DNA from: a virus
Reading direction: 5' to 3' (one strand)
DNA length: 22,097 bases
IMG/VR virus record: IMGVR_UViG_3300018421_000250
Location: 1 to 22,097 of that record
Positions 876 to 14,954 of the stretch are shown in pieces (position 1 is the stretch's first letter; each line of letters opens with the position of its first letter). The position numbers and the translations under genes are program-made. Under the pieces are notes generated by a model that was given only the letters and a program-made list of their open reading frames with translations, did no database searches and was not told where the DNA came from.

Positions 876-900
876 ATACATAATAAGTAACCATAGGAGA
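875..900 (+). promoter_or_regulatory. Candidate late promoter and ribosome binding site of the giant fibre gene
   Basis: TATACATA at 875-882 differs at one base from the T4 late promoter box TATAAATA, which gp55-loaded RNA polymerase recognises. It lies immediately after the gp23 terminator and about 26 bases before the start of a structural gene, where a late promoter is expected. An AGGAGA ribosome binding site at 895-900 stands 8 bases before the ATG at 909. The box is short and partly shares the terminator T-run, so the promoter call is tentative. The ribosome binding site is convincing. Confidence 0.45.
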
Positions 901-908
901 AAGTAAGT

Positions 909-3900
909 ATGTCAAATGCATGGACTAATATATTTGATCTGTTGGATGAAAATTCTCAGATAATGTATGTTTCTAATGATGGTAATGATGGCACTGCTCA
1001 AATATATTCTAAGTCCGACTCTGAGATTGGAACTTCCCCTGAGTTTCCTACAGGAACAATCTATCCTTATGAAACATGGGAAGCAGCATATGCAAACATT
1101 AGACCAAACAAAAAAGACTGTGTTCTTTTTGCCAGAGGAAATACGTTTGAACTAAGAAATGGACTATTTACTCACGGTGGAAACTTTATTCCTACGCACG
1201 GACCAACTGCTGACCCACTTTCAACAATAATTGGATCATATGGTTTAACTGCAAATGATCGACCACTTATTACGACTCCGATATATCAAACACTTTCCCT
1301 TACTGGTGGTGTTGGTGATTTTAGTGTTGGTGAATATGTGGAAGGCTACCAATTGGGCGGGAATACAGCAGATGCTCCCGGCGGAACATTTTCTGCTTTA
1401 GTTGAATCTTGGAATTCTACGAGCAAACAACTAGTTGTAGTGGGTCTTACTGATTACCAGCAATTTGGCTTGAGTGGTGATTCTGATTTTTGGGGAGCCA
1501 CCATCACAGGACTTTCTTCTGGAACAGAGTATATAATTAATACAGACCCAGAGGTCTATGAAAAAGAAGAAGAACTAAGACCTCGCGCCCAACCAATCAT
1601 ATCCATTACAGGTCTTAAAGACACTTATCAAAATGCTTGTTTGGGTTTGTTTTCTCTTAACATAAAGACAGCAGGAACAGATGATCGTACTGCGAGTTGT
1701 ATTGCTATAAATGGAGCAAAAAATATTTATATCGAAGATTGTTTTCTTCGAGGTGGTATTGAAGTTGAAACATATTCTCATGGGAATCAGGGATATATTT
1801 CTTATCCCGGTAATATTCACATTTATAGATCAATAATTGTAGATGCATCTAGAAGAAGAGGAGGACACCACCAAGGATTGTTCTTGTCTGGTGTTGTTGG
1901 TGTTACTCTCGAAGAATGCGTCATGGACAGAAATGGTTATGCTGAAAATCCCATAGATCCAAGCACATGGTCTCAGCCACTAAAAACTGTAAATAATAGT
2001 GCTACAAATGCCGTAGAAACCGGCACTGGTGTTCAGCCCCATAGAACATGGTTCAGCAGAAACATCTATGCGTCTAGTTACAAAAACCTAAACCTCAAAG
2101 GAAACATTCTATCTAGAAGTGCATCTTCTCACCAAATGAGAAACGGTGGTGTTGCTGAAAGAAATGCATTTTTATGGAATGATTCTGCTCTTGCTCCAGC
2201 CATTCTATCAGCAAGAGAATGGGCTTCTGGAATTAACCTTGATAGAAACTTGGTTATGCACGAAGATCACCTTTTAGCAGCAGCCTTGGCTTCCGGTGGT
2301 ATGCAACCTGCTCTTGGTGGGGGCAATCAATTAATTGCAACTGAAAATATATTTTCAGGATTTATAAGACCAACGAGAGGATTGCTTTCATTTACTTCAT
2401 TCGGTGACTATGACATTACAAGTAGAGCATTAACAACATCACTCATAGGAAACAATAAGTTTTATCACCAACTTCCTGTTGGTGTTCCTATGGGAAGTGA
2501 TGCTCCATCTCTTTCGTTCAATACAGGTTTGACTGGAATAGAAGACTCATTATTCATCGGTGACTACATTTCATCCTCAAACGCAGACCTACAAAAGAAC
2601 GGAAATAAGAAATATGCATACGTCACTGGAATTTCTCATGGATCTGTTGCAGGAACTACAATTGAAATTGCTGCTGGTGGGTTTGGTCTAACTCCCGGAT
2701 ACACCAATGCAGATGATTTTTATCTTTTCAGTCACGGCGGCAGTACATCGGAAGAAATAACTCTACCGTCAGAAGAGGGAGAAAGAGCAACAGTAAACAA
2801 CAACGTATTTTTGACATACGACGAAGGCACGGTAATAAGTTTTAGATCAGTAAATCCAGATAGCAATTGGAATAATGGTATCAAATCATATGTTGGTTCT
2901 GGCAATGTTGTGGCTAGAATAGACAATACAAAAGCAAAACCACTTGCATTTGTAACCAGCGAAGACGCTAACTCTGAAACAGGAAATCTTCCTCCCACAA
3001 CATGGAGTTATGGAAGCAACTTCTTCAACCAATCTGAATATGGAGATTCACAACAGACTCCAGCAGGAACAAGAGAATTTAATAGTCTTGCTGAATTTCA
3101 AGTGGAAGGCTGGGAACCCAATTCAATAGAATATTCAGACATAACAACTTTAGGTACAACTTTAGGTTGGGAAACAACACAAGATGCCCAAGGAAGATAT
3201 AGTTGGGATAAAGATATTGTTTCTTATATGGAATCAATTGATGGTTCTTATGTTGTAGATGAAAATGTTACCGTTGACGATGGTGTTCCCACAGAAAACA
3301 AAAGAGTTGGTGCAATAAAAGTTTGGGAACTTCTTGCTGGTGTCGGCGGAGGAATCACACAATGCAACGTAGACGATCCTTTGTCCGAAGCAGACGCAAA
3401 ACTAACCGCACGAAGGTATCATGCATTTTTAACCTTCATAGAACGAGCCAGACAAAATAACCGATACAACTGGGACGAAAATTATACAGCAGACCGTCTA
3501 AATGACTACATGCGTTCCGGTCTTTCTATGGAGGCTGTTTCTGATACAGAATTTACTGCAATACAACCAGAACCACTTTTAATAGTTGGCGATTATGGTT
3601 TTAGTGGAGACTACGAGGGGGGTCCATATGCAGGTGAAACTGGTGCCACGGGAGCCACTGGAGCCACTGGAGCCACTGGAGCCACAGGAGCAACGGGTGC
3701 AACTGGTGCTACAGGAGAAACTGGTGCAAACGAAGAACAAGAAGGAAATGAAATAATGAGTTACGATTCAAACGGTTTCACAATATTAACACCTGCTTCT
3801 GATAGCAGATTGATGTATGTTTCCGCAGATGGCAATGACACAGAAGCCGCTGCTGTAAACAACGGAAAAGGATACTACCTGCCGAGCGATTCCGAAATCG

Positions 3901-6900
3901 GCTCCGATCCGACTAATCCAGTTGGTCCAATTGTTGCTTATGCAACTCACTTTGAAGCAGCAAAACGAGTTCGTTTATCAAGATCAACTGGAGAAGATGA
4001 AAATGGATTTCCTGTCTATGGATCAACCGACGAAGTAGGATACCCCGATTGGGTTCTGTTGCGCCGCGGCGACTCCTTTCTTGAAGATCCCATATTGCAG
4101 CATCCGAACAGCGGAAGAACTGCATCGTTCTCTCTTGGTCGACTTCTTGCCGGTTCGGGTGAACCAGTTACTGGTTGGAATGAAGAGAAACAACGCCTCT
4201 GGTACACCTGCGGTCCATGGCGAGGACGAAGCGTTTCCGAACCTGCCGTCGTCACAGCGTGGGGAAATACTGCTGACGCTAGACCTATCTTAAGCGGTTT
4301 TTCCATCTGTGGTGCAGGTCGGCATCTTCGAATAGTGTCCATTGATCTTGGAAATAACAATATGGGTTGGGGATGGGGCAACATAACCAACCATTCTGCC
4401 AAGGATATTCTCGTCGAAGACGTTAGGATGAAATCTTTAGGCGCGGTTAACAAATATGTTGCTCCCCAATTTCCATCCGAACCCGGTCTGTTAATCCGGC
4501 GGAATGTCATCTACGGCAACTTCAATCCCGATGGTCACAATCAGGGGTTCTTCCTCTACTCTCCTGAAACACATATAACAATTGAGGAAAACGTCTTCGA
4601 CAAGAACGGATTCAAGGAAGATCCCAACGAGCCGACGACATGGACACGCGGTATCGGAACGACCGACCCTCGACCGGTCGGACAAGGTGTGCAGCCCCAA
4701 CGGACCTACTTCGACCGGAATATGTACCTTTCCAATTACAAAAACTTAAAGGTCCGGGGCAACATCGTTGCAAGGGGTGGTGGTGGTTCGAGTCTACAGA
4801 TGCGTTGTGGTGGATTGTGCGAACGTAATCTGTTCCTGTTTTGCCAACAATCAGTGGGTGCTGGACACCCACAGAGTGACCAGAACCGATGGACCGACTT
4901 TCTGTTCAAACACAACATGATGCTTCACGACGACCTCTTTTTGCCGACGGGTGGGTGGGGGATAGGAATGTCAGCGAATGGAATAAACAGTTCGATAGTT
5001 ATAGATGACAATATTTGTGCCCACTTTCATAGGTATACAAATGGTGGTGGAATAGGTAATAGGAGTTTTGGTATTGGACCAAAAACGGTCGACATTTATA
5101 ATTCAGCGGGTGCGCTATATTATGGTATTTTGCAAAATAATGTTGCTGACCATCGCTATGGTGCCGGCGGCGTAGTATTAACCCTTGCGAATTATGAAGG
5201 ACTTGGTTACGATGGTTATGATCCAACCACGGGCGTAACAAATGCAGACGGAGCAATAATCTATAACCTTTTTGCTGGAGGAAATCAAATATCCTGCATA
5301 GTAGATTTTGATCTGTATGGTAATCAAACCGAATCTGTGTTTGTTAGTAGTTATAGAGATACACCAAACGAAAATATTGATTTTGGAAACAGTGTTGGAA
5401 ATTTATACCATGCAGATTTTCAAAATTCATACGGTGATCCGCCAACATTCAAACCTAACAATTTAGGTGTTGGTGTTGCGGTAAGCGACTTCAACTCTCA
5501 TAGAGAACAAGGCTATGATAGTGCGTCCACATTTGTAGAAAATAACTTTGAAGAGTTCAAAACACTTGCTGGTTGGACTTCTCCAGACAGAGACATCGTT
5601 TCCTACATGGAAGAAATTGATCCTGCTTATATAGTTGATGAAGATGTTTATGTTGATTACACCACAACCGGAACCAAACAAAATCCCCGACAAAAAGTAT
5701 GGGAGGTGCTGGACGAGGGAAGCGGCGATCCCGCCAAGGAGGCGTGGGCAAAACAGTGTGCTAGACGCTATCACGCTGCTTTAACTTTTCTAGAAAGATG
5801 CAGAAACAGAAGAAAATACAATTGGGACAATAATTATACAGCAGATGCCGTTAATAATTACATCAGAGAAGGATATGGAAAAGACTCTGTAGGTGGAACA
5901 TACGATGATAGATCAGTTGAATATAGAGTTCAGGATTACATCACCGAATGTTCCCTGCTACAAGTCGGCAATCCTCCAAGAACACCTATAGCACATGAAG
6001 GAGGAATTGGCTCTTTTGGTGTTGCATTAAGTATAACCGGATGTACTGCATGGTCTGCGTCTTGTGTAGAAGACTGGGTAACGATAACGGAAGGTGACGT
6101 AACCAACACCGGTGAAGGTACTGTAGTTTTTTCTGTAGAGCCACATACAGCAAATACCGGCAGAACAGCAGAAATTTCAATTAGTCCACACGGTATTACA
6201 CACACCATCATTCAAATAGGTGTAGGGGAAAAATGTTTTTACTCAGTAGGGGATAGAACATTTAAAAATCATATAGAACGTATCAACAAAAGAGTGAAAC
6301 TAGTGACAGTTCACCCCAATGTTGGGTGGACAGCAGGCACAGATGGCAGTTCATGGTTAACATTGCATACAACATCTGGAACCGGGGATGGTCTCATATA
6401 TTTTAGCCTAGAAGAAAATAAAACCACAGAAAACAGATTAGCAGAGATATACATAGGTCCAGAAGAAACTAGTCAGATTACATCCACCATTATTCAATAT
6501 GGAAATCCTGATGCGGAGTTTTGTTATGTTTCTTCTATAGATCCAATAACAAGAGAATTATCAGACTTTAATACAGACACTGGTTTAACATTCGGTGTTT
6601 CTATGGAAGAGGGAAATACTTGTGAGTGGTCAGCATCCACAAACAGCAATTTTATAACAATCACGAATTCTACTGGAGTTGATAATGATACGGTGGTATA
6701 TAATATAGATGAAAATATAACAGACACTGGTAGAACCGGTGAAATATCTATCGGAGGATTAACCCATTCTGTTTATCAACCGGGAAATCCTGATGTGCCT
6801 TTAGAATGCTCTGCTTCCTCTATAGATCCAATAACAACAGAATTATCAGACTTTAATGCAGACACTGGTTTACAGTTCGATTTTTCTCTAACTGATAATG

Positions 6901-8621
6901 CCTGTGAATGGACAGCCTACACAAACAGTAATTTTATAACCATCAAAAATTCATCTGGAACTGGTAGTGGTGCTGTTAATTATAAAATATCTGAAAATAT
7001 AACAGACACTGGTAGAACAGGTGAAATATCCATCGGAGGATTAACCCATTCTGTTTATCAACCGGGAAATCCTGATGCTGGGTCAGTTGATTATTGTGAT
7101 GCTTATTCTATAGAACCAACAATAGAAACATTATTGACCCCTACTCTAGAAAGTGATTTACAATTCAATGTCTATATGAGCAACATCAATATTATAGATC
7201 CCATTGGAGACAGTTGTAACTGGTTAGCAACTACAAACAGCAATTTTATAACAATCACGAATTCTACTGGAGTTGGTGATGGTACGGTGGTATATAATAT
7301 AGATGAAAATACAGCAGACACTGGTAGAACCGGTGAAATATCCATCGGAGGATTAACTCATTCTGTTTATCAACCTGCATCTTTTATCTCTCAAGAATGT
7401 TTCTTTGATGGTATAGATTCCGAAAAACAAAATTTAAACTATACTGCATCAACTGGAATAACATTTTATGTTGAGATGAATACTGAAGATTGTGGATGGA
7501 CAGCATCTACAAGCAATGAGTTTATAACAATCACAACTGCATCTGGAAATGGTAGTGGTAATGTAGTATATGGTGTGGACCAAAACAACACACAAGAAAT
7601 AAGAACAGGTGAAATATCAATTGGAGGATTAACTCATTCTATTAGACAAGGAATTGTATTTGGTTTAACTCAATCTTCCAGTGATCTTTTTGATAAAGAA
7701 GTCAAAGTCGCGTCAACATATACAACGACAGAAAAACTATCTAGTAATCTAGTGGTATTGTTTGATCCTCTTCCCAGCGAAGCAATGAATGAATCACTAA
7801 GAAACAGAGGGTTTCATCAATATATGATCATCTATGGATCATCAGATCCAAACCACAAGACAGGAACTATAGATGATACCAGAGTAATTGATTTCATCAG
7901 AGAAAAGTACGGAGACAATCCTACTGGTTATGGTGTTCTTGATTTTGAAACTCCTTACTTTTCAAACATTCTAAACCAAGATATTGGTTCCGATGACTTC
8001 AATCAATCTAAACAAGAATTGATTAGTTTAATACAAAGCGTAAAAACAGAATTTCCAAATGTTTCTTGGACACTATACGGATTTCCTGTGTTAAAACAAT
8101 GGCCTGAAAACAATTCTTGGTACAACCTAACACCGCGAGATAGAGAAAACATACTGGAAGATTCACTCGAAAGAAACAGCGATATAATGTCCAATATGGA
8201 TTGGCTTGCACCCAGCGTATACGACCATTATGACGACGAAGTACACAATCACACTGCCGGATTTTTAGAAGGAGAACGCTTATATAGATTCTATGCAGTG
8301 GAATTGTGTAGAAGATTTAACTCCACTTTTTCTCCAAGTTCTCCAAAACCAATTTATCCCTTTGTAAGTCCTATGTTTTGGAATACGGGCAATGTAGAGT
8401 ATAATATGAAGAAAATAGATTCTGAAGAATTTGTTAGAGATCAAATTCAAGGTCTTTTAGACAATAACGTGGATGGAATTGCATTTTGGACTGGTTTAAA
8501 ATATTGGGTAAGAATTGCAACTAGCAATGAAGACTATGGAACTCCCCAACAAGAAGCAAGAAACGCTTTCACAAAAGATTACTTTGATGGAACGGAACCA
8601 AACTGGCAAGGAAACATATAA
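909..8621 (+). CDS. Giant multidomain tail fibre / adhesin-like protein (2570 aa)
   Basis: This is a very large structural or receptor-binding protein, probably at the tail fibre or baseplate periphery. Residues 1 to about 872 form a module with repetitive short-strand sequence typical of right-handed beta-helix (pectate-lyase-like) proteins. Residues 909-941 are collagen-like Gly-X-Y triplets. Residues 950 to about 1657 are a second, diverged copy of the first module: both have an LMYVS or IMYVS strand, SDSEIG, GVQPxRTxFxRN, YKNLxxxGNI, DIVSYME, ARRYHA and NYTAD. Residues 1677 to about 2252 hold six BACON-like Ig-type repeats. Residues 2252-2570 are a barrel-like domain shared with the protein encoded at 9322-10617. 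There is no signal peptide. Start 909 has a good ribosome binding site. The stop overlaps the next start (TAATG). The fibre role is inferred from architecture and position; exact receptor and enzymatic activity are unknown. Confidence 0.8.
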   Translation: MSNAWTNIFDLLDENSQIMYVSNDGNDGTAQIYSKSDSEIGTSPEFPTGTIYPYETWEAAYANIRPNKKDCVLFARGNTFELRNGLFTHGGNFIPTHGPTADPLSTIIGSYGLTANDRPLITTPIYQTLSLTGGVGDFSVGEYVEGYQLGGNTADAPGGTFSALVESWNSTSKQLVVVGLTDYQQFGLSGDSDFWGATITGLSSGTEYIINTDPEVYEKEEELRPRAQPIISITGLKDTYQNACLGLFSLNIKTAGTDDRTASCIAINGAKNIYIEDCFLRGGIEVETYSHGNQGYISYPGNIHIYRSIIVDASRRRGGHHQGLFLSGVVGVTLEECVMDRNGYAENPIDPSTWSQPLKTVNNSATNAVETGTGVQPHRTWFSRNIYASSYKNLNLKGNILSRSASSHQMRNGGVAERNAFLWNDSALAPAILSAREWASGINLDRNLVMHEDHLLAAALASGGMQPALGGGNQLIATENIFSGFIRPTRGLLSFTSFGDYDITSRALTTSLIGNNKFYHQLPVGVPMGSDAPSLSFNTGLTGIEDSLFIGDYISSSNADLQKNGNKKYAYVTGISHGSVAGTTIEIAAGGFGLTPGYTNADDFYLFSHGGSTSEEITLPSEEGERATVNNNVFLTYDEGTVISFRSVNPDSNWNNGIKSYVGSGNVVARIDNTKAKPLAFVTSEDANSETGNLPPTTWSYGSNFFNQSEYGDSQQTPAGTREFNSLAEFQVEGWEPNSIEYSDITTLGTTLGWETTQDAQGRYSWDKDIVSYMESIDGSYVVDENVTVDDGVPTENKRVGAIKVWELLAGVGGGITQCNVDDPLSEADAKLTARRYHAFLTFIERARQNNRYNWDENYTADRLNDYMRSGLSMEAVSDTEFTAIQPEPLLIVGDYGFSGDYEGGPYAGETGATGATGATGATGATGATGATGATGETGANEEQEGNEIMSYDSNGFTILTPASDSRLMYVSADGNDTEAAAVNNGKGYYLPSDSEIGSDPTNPVGPIVAYATHFEAAKRVRLSRSTGEDENGFPVYGSTDEVGYPDWVLLRRGDSFLEDPILQHPNSGRTASFSLGRLLAGSGEPVTGWNEEKQRLWYTCGPWRGRSVSEPAVVTAWGNTADARPILSGFSICGAGRHLRIVSIDLGNNNMGWGWGNITNHSAKDILVEDVRMKSLGAVNKYVAPQFPSEPGLLIRRNVIYGNFNPDGHNQGFFLYSPETHITIEENVFDKNGFKEDPNEPTTWTRGIGTTDPRPVGQGVQPQRTYFDRNMYLSNYKNLKVRGNIVARGGGGSSLQMRCGGLCERNLFLFCQQSVGAGHPQSDQNRWTDFLFKHNMMLHDDLFLPTGGWGIGMSANGINSSIVIDDNICAHFHRYTNGGGIGNRSFGIGPKTVDIYNSAGALYYGILQNNVADHRYGAGGVVLTLANYEGLGYDGYDPTTGVTNADGAIIYNLFAGGNQISCIVDFDLYGNQTESVFVSSYRDTPNENIDFGNSVGNLYHADFQNSYGDPPTFKPNNLGVGVAVSDFNSHREQGYDSASTFVENNFEEFKTLAGWTSPDRDIVSYMEEIDPAYIVDEDVYVDYTTTGTKQNPRQKVWEVLDEGSGDPAKEAWAKQCARRYHAALTFLERCRNRRKYNWDNNYTADAVNNYIREGYGKDSVGGTYDDRSVEYRVQDYITECSLLQVGNPPRTPIAHEGGIGSFGVALSITGCTAWSASCVEDWVTITEGDVTNTGEGTVVFSVEPHTANTGRTAEISISPHGITHTIIQIGVGEKCFYSVGDRTFKNHIERINKRVKLVTVHPNVGWTAGTDGSSWLTLHTTSGTGDGLIYFSLEENKTTENRLAEIYIGPEETSQITSTIIQYGNPDAEFCYVSSIDPITRELSDFNTDTGLTFGVSMEEGNTCEWSASTNSNFITITNSTGVDNDTVVYNIDENITDTGRTGEISIGGLTHSVYQPGNPDVPLECSASSIDPITTELSDFNADTGLQFDFSLTDNACEWTAYTNSNFITIKNSSGTGSGAVNYKISENITDTGRTGEISIGGLTHSVYQPGNPDAGSVDYCDAYSIEPTIETLLTPTLESDLQFNVYMSNINIIDPIGDSCNWLATTNSNFITITNSTGVGDGTVVYNIDENTADTGRTGEISIGGLTHSVYQPASFISQECFFDGIDSEKQNLNYTASTGITFYVEMNTEDCGWTASTSNEFITITTASGNGSGNVVYGVDQNNTQEIRTGEISIGGLTHSIRQGIVFGLTQSSSDLFDKEVKVASTYTTTEKLSSNLVVLFDPLPSEAMNESLRNRGFHQYMIIYGSSDPNHKTGTIDDTRVIDFIREKYGDNPTGYGVLDFETPYFSNILNQDIGSDDFNQSKQELISLIQSVKTEFPNVSWTLYGFPVLKQWPENNSWYNLTPRDRENILEDSLERNSDIMSNMDWLAPSVYDHYDDEVHNHTAGFLEGERLYRFYAVELCRRFNSTFSPSSPKPIYPFVSPMFWNTGNVEYNMKKIDSEEFVRDQIQGLLDNNVDGIAFWTGLKYWVRIATSNEDYGTPQQEARNAFTKDYFDGTEPNWQGNI
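3633..3731 (+). repeat. Collagen-like Gly-X-Y repeat within the giant fibre gene
   Basis: Eleven consecutive Gly-X-Y triplets are encoded: GET, eight GAT, GET and GAN. In the DNA this is a 9-base tandem repeat (GGAGCCACT and close variants). Such stretches in phage fibres usually form a trimeric collagen-like stalk. Here it links the two beta-helix modules, at residues 909-941. Confidence 0.9.
3742..3758 (+). promoter_or_regulatory. Internal ribosome-binding-site-like sequence and in-frame ATG at the module 2 boundary
   Basis: AAGGAA at 3742-3747 is followed after 8 bases by an in-frame ATG at 3756. That ATG encodes the methionine that begins the second beta-helix module (MSYDSNG). The context resembles the initiation sites at 8608-8623 and 9310-9324. 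It may be a remnant of an ancestral separate gene or an active internal start giving a 1621-residue product. No direct evidence of use is available. Confidence 0.45.
4021..4980 (+). other. GC-rich, codon-atypical island inside the giant fibre gene
   Basis: Within the second beta-helix module, G+C rises sharply: 65% over 4621-4680 and 63% over 4201-4260. It falls abruptly to 32% over 4981-5040. GC-ending codons such as CGG, GCG, CCG and ACG are frequent here and rare on both sides. A small second patch occurs at 5701-5760 (67%). The pattern suggests that the core of this module was acquired from another genome by recombination within the gene. Confidence 0.7.
6639..6795 (+). repeat. Near-identical DNA repeat copy 1 (BACON-like unit 3)
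   Basis: The stretch encoding NSNFITITNSTGV through GRTGEISIGGLTHSVYQ is repeated almost base for base at 7001-7075 (second half only) and 7231-7375. Such identity inside diverged repeats points to recent duplication or gene conversion among units 3 to 5. Confidence 0.85.
7001..7075 (+). repeat. Near-identical DNA repeat copy 2 (BACON-like unit 4)
   Basis: This copy encodes ITDTGRTGEISIGGLTHSVY and the linker GNPD. It matches the end of unit 3 with only scattered base changes, and also ends in the CCGGGAAATCCTGATG linker. Confidence 0.85.
7231..7375 (+). repeat. Near-identical DNA repeat copy 3 (BACON-like unit 5)
   Basis: The first half matches 6639-6680 almost exactly, and the second half matches both other copies. 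The GNPD linker is lost here and replaced by an unrelated linker. Confidence 0.85.
7662..8618 (+). other. C-terminal barrel-like domain of the giant fibre protein (possible glycoside hydrolase)
   Basis: Residues 2252-2570 align along their length with residues of the separate protein at 9322-10617. Shared blocks include YGDNP/YGDKE, GYGxLD[FY]E, EFPxxxWTxYGxPxLKxW, DWLxPSxYxxYDxxVH and GxAxWxxxxYxxR. A D-x-E pair lies at D2345 and E2347. The order of these blocks (acidic pair on a strand, W-x-x-YGFP strand, W-x-x-PSxY strand) recalls the TIM-barrel hyaluronidase-like (GH56) family. This assignment is by eye and uncertain; the paralogy between the two proteins is clear. Confidence 0.55.
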
Positions 8622-9253
8622 TGCGCACAGTAGAATCATATTTAGCAGAAGAATCTTCGGTTTTAGTAGAGCAACTTATGTTAGCAGCATTTGGTGCTGC
8701 CGGTGGTTTAGAGGAATCAGTTCAACCAGAAGATCAAACACCGACAGATATAGGTCCAATTGCAACTCAACCATCAAACCAAAACTACATTTATCAGACA
8801 TACTACAGATTTGTATTGCAGGAAATGCCCAACCTAGAATACTTCATAACTAAAGTATCACTACCAAGTTTTGGTTATGATAGTGCTATTGAGCAACCCA
8901 ATAGATTTTCACTTATTCGACATCCAGCAAGTAAAGTTGTTTTTAGTCCTCTTGAAATGTCATTTCTAGTTGATGAAAACATGGAAAACTGGCTAGAAAT
9001 ATACAACTGGATTCGTAGAACAAGTGTTGTAGATGATCACAGAGACATACTAGAAGACACCAAAGAACATTTTACTCAAGGAACATTATTCATTACCAAT
9101 AGTGCAATGAATCCCAATCTAGAGGTTACTTTCTACAATATGTTCCCAATATCTGTAAGTGGATTTGAATTTGACAGTCAAATTACAGATCTTACTCCTT
9201 GGACTGCAAACGTAACCTTTGCTTATGATTACTACGACATCAAAAAACTTTAA
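8621..9253 (+). CDS. gp19-like (tail-tube family) structural protein
   Basis: This is a 210-residue protein. After a low-complexity N-terminal region of about 55 residues, it has the pattern of T4 gp19-family tail tube proteins of marine myoviruses: YRFVLQEMPNLEYFITKVSLPSF, a segment with ASKVVFSPLEMSFLVDEN, MENWLEIYNWIRR, a strand giving TLFITNSAMNPNLEVTFYNM, and FPISVSGFEFDS near the end. That fold also occurs in the gp54 tube initiator and other baseplate proteins. The major tube subunit normally sits next to the sheath gene, so this could instead be a paralogue that seats or connects the fibre. Its ATG overlaps the stop of the giant gene (TAATG) with AAGGAA 7 bases before it, so the two are probably translated together and may assemble together. 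Confidence 0.65.
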   Translation: MRTVESYLAEESSVLVEQLMLAAFGAAGGLEESVQPEDQTPTDIGPIATQPSNQNYIYQTYYRFVLQEMPNLEYFITKVSLPSFGYDSAIEQPNRFSLIRHPASKVVFSPLEMSFLVDENMENWLEIYNWIRRTSVVDDHRDILEDTKEHFTQGTLFITNSAMNPNLEVTFYNMFPISVSGFEFDSQITDLTPWTANVTFAYDYYDIKKL

Positions 9254-9290: not shown

Positions 9291-9321
9291 CTGAGTGTCA
9301 ACGAAGGAAAAGGAAACATAT

Positions 9322-10617
9322 ATGCTCTCTAGAATACTAAGATCTCTTAAGGGTGATACCCAAGTCAAAGTCAAACAGAATCCAGAACTTGCTCCTCCAC
9401 TAGTTCCAGAAGAAGAACTTACTCTTCCTGATCTCTTGTCTGCATGGGGAACATACGATCCAACATACGATTTAAACGGAGATGGAATTGTGAACGGAGA
9501 AGATCTTGGTTTGTTTCTTCTTCGTAAACCACCAGCAGAAGAAAAGGAAGATCGAAACCTGATTCTCTATCCACAACACGGTGTTCTATCAACTAGGTTT
9601 CCAGTTCCTCCAATGTATGATGCCATTCTCAAACTTGAACAAGAAGAGGAGATGGATCAATTTGCAAGAAGAAGAGCAGGTGCAGAAACCTATTACATCT
9701 GGTATGCATCTTGGGATATTGGTCATGGCAAAGAAACTGGTAGTCTCAGTATCAATGAAGATCAGATCATAGAAAATGTTAGAAAGTATTATGGAGACAA
9801 GGAACCAGAGGGTTATGGACAACTAGACTACGAGGGTAACTTCTTCCGTGGATTGGACAAGGGAGAAGGAACTGTAGAAAATCAAGAAGCAACGCGAGTC
9901 ATGCTCAAGGCACTTCGTCGAATGAAGCAAGAGTTTCCCAAGATGAAGTGGACCTATTATGGTTTACCTATGCTGAAGTATTGGCTTCCACACCCCTCAC
10001 CCACAAATGCATATACATGGGTCAATGCTCCTTTGGAAGTAAAGATACAGGAGATCGAACACAAGTATGCAGCATATAGAGAACTTCTATCAGAGTGTGA
10101 TTGGTTGAATCCTTCGTTCTACAATCGCTATGATCCTGATGTTCATAAAAACAACATAGTTGCCAGAGAAGCAACATATAGAAAAGAACTGGTTGTTTTC
10201 TGTCATATGTTCAATGAAAGACTTGGAACCAACAAACCAATCATACCAATGACATGCCCTTGGTATGTTGCTGGTGGTAAGGTTGAATATGACTATAAGA
10301 CTGTTCAAGATCAGTTTATGCTTGACACTGTTATCAATCCTTATCTGGAAGAAGGTGTAAATGGTTTTGCATTGTGGTATGCACACAGTTACTATGCTAG
10401 ACTTGCATTCGAATACAACTCCAACACCAGAAATCCAAAGCACTATGATGCCTTTATCAAAAACTACAATCAAGATCCAAGAAGGTTTGATCTGGAGAAT
10501 ATGACACCCGAACAAAGCATGGAGTGGAAAGATCTCTACATGGAGAAGTCCAGTGAAACGATTCTCAATCACATGAAGGTGATGAGAAGTTCAATGGATC
10601 GGTTTTATTCTACTTGA
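9322..10617 (+). CDS. Dockerin-like motif plus barrel-like (possible glycoside hydrolase) protein, 431 aa
   Basis: The start ATG at 9322 is chosen because AAGGAA lies 6 bases before it. A GTG at 9295 in the same frame is less likely because it coincides with the predicted transcript start. Residues 38-49 read LPDLLSAWGTYD with more following, then an EF-hand-type loop D50-x-N52-G-D54-G-x-V-N58-x-x-D61 and DLGLFLL. This matches one half of a dockerin-type calcium-binding repeat. Residues from about 115 onward form the same domain as the C-terminus of the giant fibre protein, with D169-Y-E171, KWTYYGLPMLKYW and DWLNPSFYNRYD. No signal peptide or membrane segment is seen. The likely role is a virion-associated or secreted enzyme acting on host glycan, or an accessory fibre part. 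The enzymatic role is inference from distant resemblance to GH56-like barrels. Confidence 0.6.
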   Translation: MLSRILRSLKGDTQVKVKQNPELAPPLVPEEELTLPDLLSAWGTYDPTYDLNGDGIVNGEDLGLFLLRKPPAEEKEDRNLILYPQHGVLSTRFPVPPMYDAILKLEQEEEMDQFARRRAGAETYYIWYASWDIGHGKETGSLSINEDQIIENVRKYYGDKEPEGYGQLDYEGNFFRGLDKGEGTVENQEATRVMLKALRRMKQEFPKMKWTYYGLPMLKYWLPHPSPTNAYTWVNAPLEVKIQEIEHKYAAYRELLSECDWLNPSFYNRYDPDVHKNNIVAREATYRKELVVFCHMFNERLGTNKPIIPMTCPWYVAGGKVEYDYKTVQDQFMLDTVINPYLEEGVNGFALWYAHSYYARLAFEYNSNTRNPKHYDAFIKNYNQDPRRFDLENMTPEQSMEWKDLYMEKSSETILNHMKVMRSSMDRFYST

Positions 10618-10641
10618 CTAGACATGATAGTGTGATATACT
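10614..10641 (+). promoter_or_regulatory. Sigma70-like promoter of uvsY, predicting a nearly leaderless mRNA
   Basis: TTGACT at 10614-10619 overlaps the stop codon of the upstream gene. TATACT follows at 10636-10641 after 16 bases. The expected transcript start is near 10648, two bases before the uvsY ATG at 10650. No Shine-Dalgarno sequence is visible. Confidence 0.7.
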
Positions 10642-10649
10642 TCTAAACT

Positions 10650-11084
10650 ATGAATCTCAAAAAGATCAAAGAGATGGTTGAACGAGATACCATCATTGAC
10701 GAGACAAAACTTGACACTGAGTCTCTTCGTCTTCCTCAGTTGCACAACAAGTATCTGAACATATACTTGGACGCCAAACTCATTCTCGAACGCAAAGAGA
10801 ATGAGTTTCGTCGTATGCGCAAACTGAAGTGGATCTACTATACAGGAAAGATGGACGAGGAAACTTTGCAACGATTGAATTGGGAACCTTTTGAGTATAA
10901 GATTCTCAAGCAGGACATGGCAATCTACATGGAAGGTGATGATGATCTGATTACACTTTCTGAACAGGTGACATACTACAAGGAGTTGTGTCAGTATGTT
11001 GATTCTGTGGTAAAGGAGATCACCTATCGTCACAACAAGATTCGAAACGCGATTGATTGGAATAAATTTCTAGCCGGCAATTAA
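10650..11084 (+). CDS. uvsY: UvsY-like recombination mediator
   Basis: UvsY loads the phage recombinase UvsX onto gp32-coated single-stranded DNA and is essential for recombination-dependent replication in T4. The 144-residue protein is close to the 137 residues of T4 UvsY. It has the same layout: an N-terminal FIDSTKLQ-like segment (TIIDETKLDTESLRLPQL), the K-L-x-[WL]-x-YY-[ST]-G block (LKWIYYTGKM) near residue 60, and a C-terminal helix ending in an ITYRHNKIRNAIDWNKF segment. It is highly charged and helical, with no membrane segment. UvsW follows 18 bases downstream, as part of the usual recombination cluster. The start codon lies directly behind a sigma70-like promoter without a ribosome binding site, which is unusual. 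Confidence 0.88.
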   Translation: MNLKKIKEMVERDTIIDETKLDTESLRLPQLHNKYLNIYLDAKLILERKENEFRRMRKLKWIYYTGKMDEETLQRLNWEPFEYKILKQDMAIYMEGDDDLITLSEQVTYYKELCQYVDSVVKEITYRHNKIRNAIDWNKFLAGN

Positions 11085-11104
11085 TTCCCTACATATTGGG
11101 GAAT
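11084..11104 (+). promoter_or_regulatory. Hairpin covering the uvsW start codon
   Basis: ATTCCCT at 11084-11090 can pair with GGGGAAT at 11098-11104, giving 7 pairs including one G-U around a 7-base loop. The second arm contains the A and T of the uvsW start codon and the only G-rich stretch upstream, which is too close to the ATG to be a normal ribosome binding site. It could restrict uvsW translation from read-through transcripts, as start-site hairpins do for some T4 late genes. The role is inferred. Confidence 0.4.
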
Positions 11105-12617
11105 GACAGATATACTGGTTGAATATGTTGATAGTGTAAATATAAGAGTTCGGTGCGAGCGAGGCATTGCAAAAGAACTCTCAGACTATTTTACTTTCAA
11201 AGTTCCCGGTCACACCTACATGCCTGCATATCGCAAGCGAATATGGGATGGTCAGATCAAACTCTACAATATGTTTTCTCAGTTGATCTACGCAGGTCTT
11301 GAAAACTATGTGGAGTCTTTTGCCCATGCGCGTGGATATACGTTTGTGAAATCAAGAGGAGGAACAAAGATACCACCACCGGGAAATGCTCATACAACTG
11401 AGCATCTGCTTTCATATGCGGAAGAAAAACTTAAGATTCCAATGAAACCACATGAACATCAATTGGATGCCATTCGTCATGCTCTCTATGCAAATAGAAC
11501 TCTTCTGGTTTCTCCTACAGGCTCAGGTAAAAGTCTGATGATATACACTATGGTTCGCTATCACTTGGATAAACTACCCAAGGACAAAAAGATATTGATC
11601 ATTGTTCCAACAACAAGTCTGGTGTCTCAACTGTATTCTGATTTCAAGGACTATGCAAAGAATGACAAGTGGTGTGTGGAAACCAACTGTCACAGAGTAA
11701 TGTCTGGCATAGAGAAGGATGATCTTAAAAAGAGAGTCATCATCTCCACATGGCAAAGCATATACAAGCAACCCAAAGAATACTTTTCCAAGTTTGGTGC
11801 TGTGTTTGGAGATGAGTGCCATCTTTTCAAGGCTAAGTCACTTACTTCAATAATGACCAAACTGGAGGACTGTCCTGTGCGTATAGGAACAACAGGAACA
11901 CTTGATGATTCACTGACACACAAGTTGGTAATCGAGGGGTTATTTGGTCCTGTGTATGAGGTGACAAAGACGAAGACACTTATGGAAAGAAAGTTGTTGT
12001 CAACACTCAAGATAGATGCTATACTTCTCAAGCATTCAGAGTCGGTGAGATCTGAACTGAAAAGATCCACATATCAAGATGAGATAGATTACATCGTGTC
12101 GTGTGAAGAGAGAAATAGGTTTGTGTGTAGATTGACAAACAACCTCAAGGGAAACACATTGGTTCTGTTTCAGTTTGTGGAAAAGCATGGAAAGGTATTG
12201 CATCAGATGATGAAGAAGGAGTTTCCAGATAAGCAAGTGTTTTTTGTTCATGGAGGAACAGATGCAGAGCAAAGAGAAACCATTCGAAAGTTCGTTGAAA
12301 AGACAGAAAATGCTGTCATCATTGCGTCCTATGGAACCTTCAGCACTGGTGTATCCATCAAACGCCTACATAATATTGTGTTTGCATCTCCATCCAAAAG
12401 CAGGATTCGAGTGTTGCAAAGCATAGGTCGGCAATTGCGGAAGTCGGAGCATAAAGATGTTGCAAAACTATATGACATCGCAGATGACCTCTCTTGGAAA
12501 AAATACAAGAACCACACACTCCGTCACTTTGAGGAAAGGCTCAAAATATATGATGGTGAAAGTTTTCAATATGCCCAAATCAATATCAACCTAAAAGGAG
12601 GGCTAAATGTCGCATAG
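11103..12617 (+). CDS. uvsW: UvsW-like DNA/RNA helicase
   Basis: UvsW is an SF2 helicase that unwinds R-loops and branched DNA, drives fork regression, and shifts T4 replication from origins to recombination. The 504-residue protein matches the T4 length (about 502). Visible motifs are Walker A SPTGSGKS at about residue 137, motif II DECH at 237, motif III GTTGT at about 262 and motif VI QSIGRQLRKS at 439-448. The N-terminal region of about 110 residues corresponds to the substrate-binding domain of T4 UvsW. Its end overlaps the next gene by 11 bases, suggesting coupling. Initiation is unusual: there is no proper ribosome binding site, and the start codon lies in a potential hairpin. Confidence 0.95.
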   Translation: MTDILVEYVDSVNIRVRCERGIAKELSDYFTFKVPGHTYMPAYRKRIWDGQIKLYNMFSQLIYAGLENYVESFAHARGYTFVKSRGGTKIPPPGNAHTTEHLLSYAEEKLKIPMKPHEHQLDAIRHALYANRTLLVSPTGSGKSLMIYTMVRYHLDKLPKDKKILIIVPTTSLVSQLYSDFKDYAKNDKWCVETNCHRVMSGIEKDDLKKRVIISTWQSIYKQPKEYFSKFGAVFGDECHLFKAKSLTSIMTKLEDCPVRIGTTGTLDDSLTHKLVIEGLFGPVYEVTKTKTLMERKLLSTLKIDAILLKHSESVRSELKRSTYQDEIDYIVSCEERNRFVCRLTNNLKGNTLVLFQFVEKHGKVLHQMMKKEFPDKQVFFVHGGTDAEQRETIRKFVEKTENAVIIASYGTFSTGVSIKRLHNIVFASPSKSRIRVLQSIGRQLRKSEHKDVAKLYDIADDLSWKKYKNHTLRHFEERLKIYDGESFQYAQININLKGGLNVA

Positions 12618-13173
12618 ACTAAAGATACTGAAACTGAAAAGTGGTGACAATCTCATCGCTGAGTTGACAGAAAGTAACAAGACAACACTAAAGTTGTTTC
12701 GTCCGATGGAGATCAAATACATGAACTTTGTTGATGGTCTTGGTCGCCGACATGAGGCTATGGTCCTCACTGACTGGTTGAAATCAACAACATCCAATGA
12801 ATTTGTAGTTGACAAAGACTTTATACTTGGTATATTTACACCAAGTTCTGATGTTCTGAAGGTATACTCCAAACAAAAAGAGTTTGATGATAACAATCCA
12901 GAAACATCAGACGAAAAGGGTCTTGCAAACCTTTTCAATGACATAGAGAAACAAATCAAAAACATGAATACAGGTGATATATTAAAACATCTAAAAGGTC
13001 TAGAAGAGGAAGAGGATTTTAGTGATGACGAAGAGTCTCCAGAAGACTTGATAAGAAACATCATTCAGCAGCAAAAAGGCAAGAAAGAAAAACTGATTGA
13101 TGAAGAGGCTGATCCAAAATACGGATCAAGTTATTGTGACTGGTCTCCAGACCCAGAGGATTATCTTTCATAA
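12607..13173 (+). CDS. Conserved phage protein with Sm-like N-terminal region
   Basis: The function of this 188-residue protein is not established. The first 85 residues (KILKLKSGDNLIAEL, then LFRPMEIKYMN and FILGIFTPSSDVLKVY) have the strand pattern of an Sm/LSm-like small beta-barrel, which in other phages and bacteria binds RNA or single-stranded DNA. This is a pattern-based guess. An acidic stretch (EEEEDFSDDEESPED) follows around residue 135, and a polar tail ends in DPEDYLS. A strong AAGGAGG site at 12595-12601 precedes the ATG, which lies inside the end of uvsW. The gene sits directly before the late sigma factor gp55, so a role in late transcription or mRNA handling is conceivable. 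Confidence 0.6.
   Translation: MSHRLKILKLKSGDNLIAELTESNKTTLKLFRPMEIKYMNFVDGLGRRHEAMVLTDWLKSTTSNEFVVDKDFILGIFTPSSDVLKVYSKQKEFDDNNPETSDEKGLANLFNDIEKQIKNMNTGDILKHLKGLEEEEDFSDDEESPEDLIRNIIQQQKGKKEKLIDEEADPKYGSSYCDWSPDPEDYLS
12809..12836 (+). promoter_or_regulatory. Possible intragenic sigma70-like promoter upstream of gp55
   Basis: TTGACA at 12809-12814 and TATATT at 12831-12836 are separated by 16 bases, the same layout as the gap promoters. It lies within the Sm-like gene, about 330 bases before gp55. It could be a chance match inside coding sequence. Confidence 0.3.
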
Positions 13174-13174
13174 T

Positions 13175-13720
13175 ATGTCAGAAGAAAGCCACTATGTAGA
13201 TAATGAAAAGTTCCTAAAGGCAATGACCGAGTGGAAGAGACTCGTCGTTGAGGCAGAGAACACTGGAGATGAAAAACCACCCATACCTGATTATGTTGGC
13301 GAGTGTTTTCTTTTGATAGCGGAAAGACTTTCTCTTAGAGCAAACTTCATAAACTATCCATATAGAGAAGAAATGATAGGCGATGCCATAGAGAATTGTG
13401 TTCAGTATGCCAGTAACTTCTGTCCAACAAAGTCAAGCAATCCCTTTTCATACTTCACTCAGATTATCTACTATGCTTTTCTTCGCAGAATCCAAAAGGA
13501 AAAGAAGCAGAACTATATCAAGTACAAGATACTAGAAACAGCAGACAGTGTTGGTGACATTGCTAAACTACTTGATCCAGATAAGATGTCCAACAACCCC
13601 TACGCTGACTTCTTCAATCTTACATCAATGGATATAGAAAACTTCACTCCCAAAAAGAAAAAGTCAAAGAAGACTAATAAAAAGGATGATGGAGAAGATC
13701 AATGCGAATCGCTATTCTAA
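13175..13720 (+). CDS. 55: Late-transcription sigma factor gp55
   Basis: gp55 replaces host sigma70 on RNA polymerase and directs it to the short late promoters, with gp33 and the gp45 clamp as activators. The 181-residue protein is near the T4 length of 185. It shares the block order of T4 gp55: NEKFLKAMTEWK, LIAERLSLRANFINY, EMIGDAIENCV, NPFSYFTQIIYYAFLRRIQKEKKQ and YIKYK. The start MSEESH at 13175 is chosen over an upstream in-frame ATG at 13097, because the latter would add 26 residues unrelated to gp55 read inside the previous gene. The last residues, QCESLF, look like a sliding-clamp-binding peptide. They are encoded in the 19-base overlap with gp47. Confidence 0.93.
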   Translation: MSEESHYVDNEKFLKAMTEWKRLVVEAENTGDEKPPIPDYVGECFLLIAERLSLRANFINYPYREEMIGDAIENCVQYASNFCPTKSSNPFSYFTQIIYYAFLRRIQKEKKQNYIKYKILETADSVGDIAKLLDPDKMSNNPYADFFNLTSMDIENFTPKKKKSKKTNKKDDGEDQCESLF

Positions 13721-14748
13721 CCGATACTCACTTTGGCGCGCGTAACGACTCACAACAATTTTTAGATTACTTTCTTGGTTTCATTGAGAACCAATTTCTT
13801 CCTGCTTGCAAAGAGCAAGGAATAGACACAATAATTCATCTTGGTGACTTGATGGATAGAAGAAAGTTCGTCAACTTCAATACACTCAATCAGGTTCGTG
13901 AAAGGTTCATCGAGAAACTGGAAGAGATGAACATCACGATGTATTGTCTTATTGGAAATCACGACACATACTACAAAAACACCAATGACATAAACTCAAT
14001 CAAAGAATTGTTTGGTGATCGCTATACTAGATTTATTGTCATAGAAAATCCATCTGAGATAGAAATCGGCAACAAGGTCTTCGGAATGATTCCTTGGATC
14101 AACAAGGAGAACAAAGAAGAGTGTGATGAGTTTCTAAAGAACACGCACGCAGATATCGTCTGTGGTCACTTTGAACTTAGAGGTTACGAGGTGATGAGGG
14201 GTGTCCAGTTTGATGGAGGAATGAACGATAATCTTCTTAGAAGGTTTGATCGAGTATGGTCTGGACACTTTCACACTAGACACACAAAAAACAATGTTCA
14301 GTATCTAGGAACACCTTATCAAATAACATTTTCAGATCTACACGAACCAAAAGGATTCTACATCTATGACACCACAACAGATCAGTTGAACTTTGTGGTC
14401 AATGAGGATAGAATGTACCTACATATTGATTACACAGATGATTTGATGATTTCAGATTTGAGTCATTATGAAGGTAAGTATTTAAAAGTTTTTGTTCGGG
14501 AAAAGAAAAGTCAAAGTAAACTGGATACACTTGTCGATAATCTATATGATGCAAAAGTTGCAAGCGTAACCATAATTGAGAATGATAATAGTAGCATAGA
14601 AGACAATGAACTTGCTGACATGACATTGGATACATTAGCGTTGATCTACAAAGAAGCCGAAGATTTCTATGCTCAAATGGAAGAGATAAATGTATCCAAA
14701 CTCAAGAATCTAATACAAGACATATACATGGAGGCAATATCACAATGA
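13702..14748 (+). CDS. 47: Recombination endonuclease subunit gp47 (Mre11/SbcD family)
   Basis: gp47 is the metal-dependent nuclease partner of gp46. Together they resect DNA ends to start recombination and degrade host DNA. The 348-residue protein (T4: about 339) shows all phosphoesterase motifs: D8-x-H10, G48-D49-x-x-D-R, G85-N86-H87-D88, G155-H156 and G188-H189-x-H191. The C-terminal region after residue 230 is the usual capping and gp46-binding part. The start lies inside the end of gp55 with GGAGAAG just before it. The end overlaps the next small gene by ATGA. All catalytic residues are present, so the enzyme should be active. Confidence 0.96.
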   Translation: MRIAILTDTHFGARNDSQQFLDYFLGFIENQFLPACKEQGIDTIIHLGDLMDRRKFVNFNTLNQVRERFIEKLEEMNITMYCLIGNHDTYYKNTNDINSIKELFGDRYTRFIVIENPSEIEIGNKVFGMIPWINKENKEECDEFLKNTHADIVCGHFELRGYEVMRGVQFDGGMNDNLLRRFDRVWSGHFHTRHTKNNVQYLGTPYQITFSDLHEPKGFYIYDTTTDQLNFVVNEDRMYLHIDYTDDLMISDLSHYEGKYLKVFVREKKSQSKLDTLVDNLYDAKVASVTIIENDNSSIEDNELADMTLDTLALIYKEAEDFYAQMEEINVSKLKNLIQDIYMEAISQ

Positions 14749-14954
14749 CCGAAGAAGAAAACCCCTCAGAGGGATTGGGAGATACCGTAGAAAAAATCAT
14801 TCACAAGGTTGGTGATGGACTCAAGATCGAGTACATAAAAAAGAAGAAGGATTGTGAACCCTGTCGCAAGAGAAAAGAAATGCTCAACAATCTTGTTCCA
14901 TACAACAACACAAAAAAACCCTGCAATAAATGTAACCAAAAGAAAGGAGGATAA
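14745..14954 (+). CDS. Small CxxC protein between gp47 and gp46
   Basis: This is a 69-residue lysine-rich protein of unknown function. Two CxxC pairs (CEPC at about residue 37 and CNKC at about 61) could bind one zinc ion. Between them lies RKRKEMLNNLVPY. The N-terminal part is acidic and then amphipathic (EKIIHKVGDGLKIEYIKKKK). It starts with ATGA overlap to gp47, with GGAGG at 14730-14734, and its stop overlaps the gp46 start (TAATG). This tight packing makes it certain to be co-translated with the nuclease pair and suggests a DNA-bound or accessory role, though that is inference. Confidence 0.75.
   Translation: MTEEENPSEGLGDTVEKIIHKVGDGLKIEYIKKKKDCEPCRKRKEMLNNLVPYNNTKKPCNKCNQKKGG

Follow-up and report, generated by a model that had tools for sequence, protein, structure and literature searches.

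The giant fibre gene described here is probably a mosaic adhesin, of the tail fibre or spike type, built from parts that are found separately elsewhere. Its two homologous modules seem to have been joined from different lineages rather than to represent a fresh local duplicate. The gene is carried on a 22,097-base IMG/VR record of a T4-like phage, and the window analysed spans the whole record. The gene order in the window was gp23, the fibre gene, a gp19-like tube gene, the gene for a 440-aa protein, UvsY, UvsW and gp47/gp46-like genes. The fibre ORF encodes 2570 aa with a layout of module, collagen-like stalk, module, six BACON domains and GH56-like domain, all joined in one frame. The first and second modules are referred to as N and M. 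The features were located as follows.

2–817, + strand: C-terminal part of the gp23 major capsid protein, at the record edge (Pfam Gp23 E 5e-97; phrog_138).
840–877, + strand: strong intrinsic terminator 3' of gp23 (14-pair stem, T run), common to the sister phages (L038 alignment).
883–8725, no strand assigned: exchanged cassette (blastn matches to L037, L038 and L039 end at 882 and restart at 8726).
909–8621, + strand: giant fibre gene, 2570 aa.
909–3524, + strand: N module, residues 1–872, homologous to M, from which its fold is predicted.
3631–3727, + strand: collagen-like (Gly-Ala-Thr)n stalk (9-bp tandem repeat; PHROG tail-fibre matches; sub-threshold Pfam Collagen).
3742–3747, + strand: AAGGAA, Shine–Dalgarno (SD)-like, 8 nt upstream of ATG 3756; strength not exceptional.
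3754–3759, + strand: TAATGA, two +1-frame stop codons overlapping the internal ATG; resembles TAATG at the fibre/gp19 junction (8619–8623).
3756–3758, + strand: in-frame ATG (Met950), at the start-codon position of free-standing M-type module genes.
3756–5882, + strand: M module, residues 950–1658, predicted right-handed beta-helix with C-terminal helices (structure model, Foldseek; sister to podovirus modules in the trees).
5990–7700, + strand: six BACON domains, about residues 1695–2264 (Pfam BACON E 2.3e-23, six stretches; TRF).
7749–8618, + strand: predicted C-terminal GH56-like TIM-barrel domain, with an LDFE motif near residue 2345 (structure model; PDB matches; homologues).
8621–9253, + strand: gp19-like tail tube protein (phrog_45 E 1.7e-26), its first ~35 residues within the exchanged cassette.
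9295–10617, + strand: 440-aa protein with a GH56-like domain at 9646–10470 and an EF-hand/dockerin-like stretch (33% to the fibre C-terminus).

The initial annotation of this DNA had proposed that the gene consists of two duplicated fibre genes fused head to tail, with a start-like site kept inside. The ordered blocks on which the proposal was based (MYVS, SDSEIG, GVQPxRTxFxRN, YKNLxxxGNI, DIVSYME, ARRYHA and NYTAD) were all present in both modules and collinear. Protein alignment confirmed that N and M are homologous, with three collinear BLASTP matches between residues 1–872 and 950–1658 that scored 117, 103 and 42 bits (E 2e-31, 1e-26 and 1e-7, respectively), against a maximum of 27.7 bits reached in 200 shuffles of M. 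Identity between the two modules was 34–36%. The collagen-like stalk expected between them was found as the 9-bp array at 3631–3727; Pfam PF01391 scored 15.3 bits, below its cut-off of 27.2, while a GAT repeat and matches to tail-fibre PHROGs were seen.

Relatives were found using the GVQPxRTxFxRN pattern, which gave 13 viral contigs, every one encoding the module; no relative was found among named phages. T4-like contigs carried stand-alone module genes of ~680–720 aa (whole genes in L003, L005, L008, L012 and L013), flanked by gp15 or a collagen-like fibre gene and, on the opposite side, by gp16, gp17 and gp18. For the podovirus-type contigs, the module lay directly 3' of the portal gene and was followed by other domains and BACON. 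Genes combining module and BACON were present in podovirus contigs L017 and L091 and in the T4-like contig L093, where the gene precedes terminase and sheath genes (named by reading the proteins). Given these stand-alone and module–BACON genes, the separate-gene forms anticipated for relatives do exist. A second ORF with the same N–M fusion was not found among the fetched loci, and hence no intermediate was seen. The syntenic relative L019 has gp21-, gp22- and gp23-like genes followed by a single module, collagen, a further segment and a GH domain; the segment reads as LamG-like, with no Pfam match. In L017, the module gene was divided over two reading frames close to where the module ends (9914–11788 and 11472–14906), either a real split or a sequencing error.

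To place the two modules, three maximum-likelihood trees were compared. M grouped with the podovirus modules of L017 and L011 (support 100/99), and N grouped with the T4-like stand-alone clade (98/98, 100/97 and 96/96), showing that the two modules fall on separate branches of a single family. Forcing N and M as sisters cost 44–46 log-likelihood units and was rejected (AU p 0.0008, 0.0004 and 0.0007); the two are not each other's closest relatives, and on these tree tests a recent tandem duplication within the lineage was rejected. Composition agreed with the trees: third-position GC was 0.25 in N and 0.23–0.26 in the T4-like stand-alone modules, and 0.39 in M (peak 0.62) and 0.66–0.74 in the podovirus modules, whose contigs have a GC content of about 43%.

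Tandem duplication of one fibre gene within this lineage, followed by loss of the stop codon between the copies, would account for the shared order of blocks, the head-to-tail arrangement and the start-like site kept at 3756. It is nonetheless very improbable in view of the rejected sister grouping, the 52% identity of M to a podovirus module versus about 34% to N, the difference in third-position GC, and the occurrence of one module in L019 and none in the close sister phages. The initial annotation was thus supported as to homologous modules, separate-gene relatives and an M-type start at Met950, and not supported as to tandem duplication in this lineage. The trees exclude no more than a sister relationship of N and M, and would also suit ancient paralogues arising from a duplication in a distant phage ancestor, with both copies kept here and one lost elsewhere. 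This is improbable too, since repeated losses would be required, the close sister phages are without any module, and the podovirus alleles and Planctomycetota gene described below show frequent module transfer. The N branch was long, about 2 changes per column, and its exact place is therefore less sure than that of M. Since the L019 module grouped apart from N, the origin of N is not apparent from this syntenic relative.

Under the preferred mosaic reading, an M-type module gene with its own ATG would have been placed in frame behind a module–collagen fibre, leaving the ATG as a relic. As had been noted, ATG 3756 is an in-frame codon, with AAGGAA ending 8 nt upstream. Comparison of free-gene starts further supported the claim that the second module begins at this methionine. 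In the free M-type genes and in L019, the start codon was 13–17 residues upstream of a conserved SR/SK, and Met950 was at 16; the free M-type starts were at most 3 residues from Met950, and those of L016, L017, L021 and L091 were at its position. By reading, no Met was found at this position in six proteins with an unrelated N-terminal extension before the module (L018, L027, L029, L030, L032 and L033). The chance of a Met with an equally good site within a given 5-residue stretch was 0.6%, and of a Met alone 5%. The SD-like site itself, at -5.7 kcal/mol, ranked 12th of the 118 in-frame internal ATGs of the window and third of 28 within the fibre, and a stronger site was present at 4968, which is not a domain start; it was therefore ruled out as proof of a working start. 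The signal at 3756 thus lies in position rather than SD strength: position supports a relic start, whereas strength does not establish that the site is used. A relic start codon is the probable reading of ATG 3756, and most likely one polypeptide is made.

A start at 3756 that still works, giving the full fibre together with a shorter M–BACON–GH product, is unlikely. The AAGGAA, the coincidence with the free-gene start position at 0.6% chance and the use of a similar AAGGAAACATATAATG site by the real gp19 start all point towards it, but the modest rank of the site and the stronger one at 4968 do not, and no close fibre relative was available for a comparison of conservation. Two products would be only weakly favoured by the SD-like site. 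Nothing useful on receptor-binding proteins with an internal start was found in a literature search.

Reading in the +1 frame stops at TAATGA, which lies exactly over ATG 3756. TAATG also forms the real fibre/gp19 junction, and the podovirus portal and module genes meet in ATGA overlaps; a single base might therefore distinguish the fused ORF from two overlapping genes. That the single ORF reflects such a one-base indel, natural or from assembly error, is nevertheless doubtful at best, as an ATG preceded by TA and followed by A is no rarity by chance alone and the single record is open in frame.

Comparison with sister phages at the nucleotide level showed the whole unit between gp23 and gp19 to be an exchanged cassette. 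Up to base 882 of the window, L037–L039 matched it at 95% identity, and from 8726 onwards at 92–98.5%, with no DNA similarity between by blastn. For L037–L040, gp23 and gp19 were separated only by a GH56-like gene (399-aa), without module, stalk or BACON, and the more distant relatives L041, L042 and L044 had no GH56-like gene at the locus. The left edge of the cassette was just 3' of the gp23 terminator and the right edge was inside gp19, whose N-terminus in sister phages carries an EF-hand stretch that is absent from the window gp19. Since sisters 92–98% identical on both flanks hold only the 399-aa protein at this locus, the fibre is best described as an exchanged, layered cassette. The sharp end of identity on both sides might also be produced by chimeric metagenome assembly, with a 7.8-kb cassette wrongly joined into a gp23–gp19 backbone. 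This is extremely improbable, because there is one intact 2570-aa frame, the hybrid gp19 is in frame, a GH domain occurs at the same place, and L019 independently has module, collagen and GH directly 3' of gp23. EF-hand/dockerin-like stretches (DLNGDGIVNGEDLG; DYNGDGNVDGADLG) were observed in the 440-aa GH56-like protein (9295–10617) and the sister gp19 N-terminus (L038, 6998–7855); Dockerin_1 was sub-threshold for those stretches (E 0.09–0.15 in L089 and L038).

The podovirus contigs L016, L017 and L091 were 91–99% identical in their upstream flanks, with identity dropping towards 40% from the module ATG and recovering past the module end, and their modules shared 36–44% protein identity. These contigs carry quite different module alleles on one backbone, with the switch at the start codon. 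Between the L091 module (841–2670) and L032 (3171–4988), a metagenome-assembled gene of Planctomycetota, DNA identity was 81% over 1838 nt; this may point to transfer, in either direction, between a phage and a bacterium. At two other bacterial loci the neighbours of the module gene were CheA/response regulators (L030) and glucose/sorbosone dehydrogenase (L029), which places the module on chromosomes too. None of Pfam, PHROGs and NCBIfam, as scanned here, names the module family. A tentative extension of these observations is that an undescribed beta-helix module family of ~700 aa could be a trading unit for surface recognition among T4-like phages, podoviruses and Planctomycetota, its cassette edge being its own start codon. 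The phage studied here would then stack two alleles, possibly with an internal start still in use, giving two specificities on one fibre.

Fusion, sharing across morphotypes and domain shuffling of fibres have been described already, and the present case is a variant of these. The T5-like phage DT571/2-ABF has a natural LtfA–LtfB fusion of two fibre genes into one chain (PMC4728585). Both cases combine two receptor-domain fibre genes in one polypeptide, with one-gene and two-gene forms coexisting in relatives; there, however, a deletion fused neighbours, whereas here homologous modules of different branches are joined inside an exchanged cassette. The host-recognition module of Alteromonas phages A5, V22 and P24 (PMC10579305) similarly involves adhesin parts shared horizontally across phage morphotypes, but belongs to another fibre family and moves as whole gene sets; here a ~700-aa unit is swapped with a start codon as its edge, and also occurs on Planctomycetota contigs. 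Enzymatic and binding fibre domains likewise recombine in varied order in a study of receptor-binding protein domain shuffling (PMC10684548), which is a general survey and differs in this from the unnamed family treated here. Tandem BACON repeats in a phage protein are described for crAss-like phages (PMC6949934); the repeats here differ in belonging to a T4-like phage and in having a beta-helix module on one side and a GH56-like domain on the other. The fibre offers a concrete route to giant phage fibres, in which gene-sized modules of different phage lineages are joined at a start codon. The cassette of uncultured T4-like phages and podoviruses is also linked to a Planctomycetota gene, and through this link host assignment and recent exchange of modules can be put to the test.

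To predict the function of the modules, M was modelled and compared with known structures. In the model (pLDDT 74, pTM 0.84), M formed a right-handed beta-helix with terminal helices, and N would be expected from its sequence homology to have a similar fold. The nearest PDB matches of M by Foldseek were PL6 lyases and GH136, both weak (TM about 0.24–0.33 by query length), and M was also near phage beta-helix proteins. Family profiles over 18 module members gave mainly Beta_helix (6/18), and no sequence family of known activity matched the module. Of the putative catalytic residues relative to PL6, the Arg of the QMR block was kept and the candidate Lys of YKNL was not. With no PL6 Pfam match in any of the 18 members and this Lys not kept, membership of the PL6 polysaccharide lyases was rejected. 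The likeness to PL6 lyases, GH136 beta-helix enzymes and, for the C-terminus, GH56 hyaluronidases is thus at the fold level only; the fibre domains differ in having no sequence-family match, and their activity is putative. The best reading is a layered adhesin, putatively binding and perhaps cleaving surface glycans through two different modules, and its architecture suggests a location in the virion. The modules would serve as beta-helix units for binding or cleaving glycans at the surface, the BACON repeats as spacers that bind carbohydrate, and the GH56-like domain in the binding or cutting of a polysaccharide. By carrying two different modules, a single fibre may engage two glycans or receptor variants. 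The gene joins three units in one frame, the N-type module plus its collagen stalk, the M-type module plus the BACON repeats, and the GH56-like domain, and related contigs have these parts as whole genes or otherwise combined.

The BACON array scored 82.4 bits for PF13004 (cut-off 25) in six stretches, and a recent 282-bp duplication was observed within it (6530–7077, 83% matches). The C-terminal domain, of about 290 aa, was homologous to the 440-aa protein two genes downstream (33%, E 9.5e-37). The top six PDB Foldseek matches of its model (pLDDT 73) were hyaluronidases (GH56), with E 1e-8 to 9e-7 and TM about 0.5; no GH56 sequence-family match was obtained in Pfam or PDB profile scans. The GH56 catalytic pair is Asp-x-Glu. 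Among the homologues, the Glu of the D-x-E motif was kept in all six and the Asp in five, with His in L019. A GH56-like domain at the variable locus between capsid and tail-tube genes is unusual. The podovirus L017, which has the M-like module gene, was also seen to encode a further GH56-like protein of 415 aa at 55345–56226 of its record (67,122 bases), with 30% to the C-terminus of the fibre.
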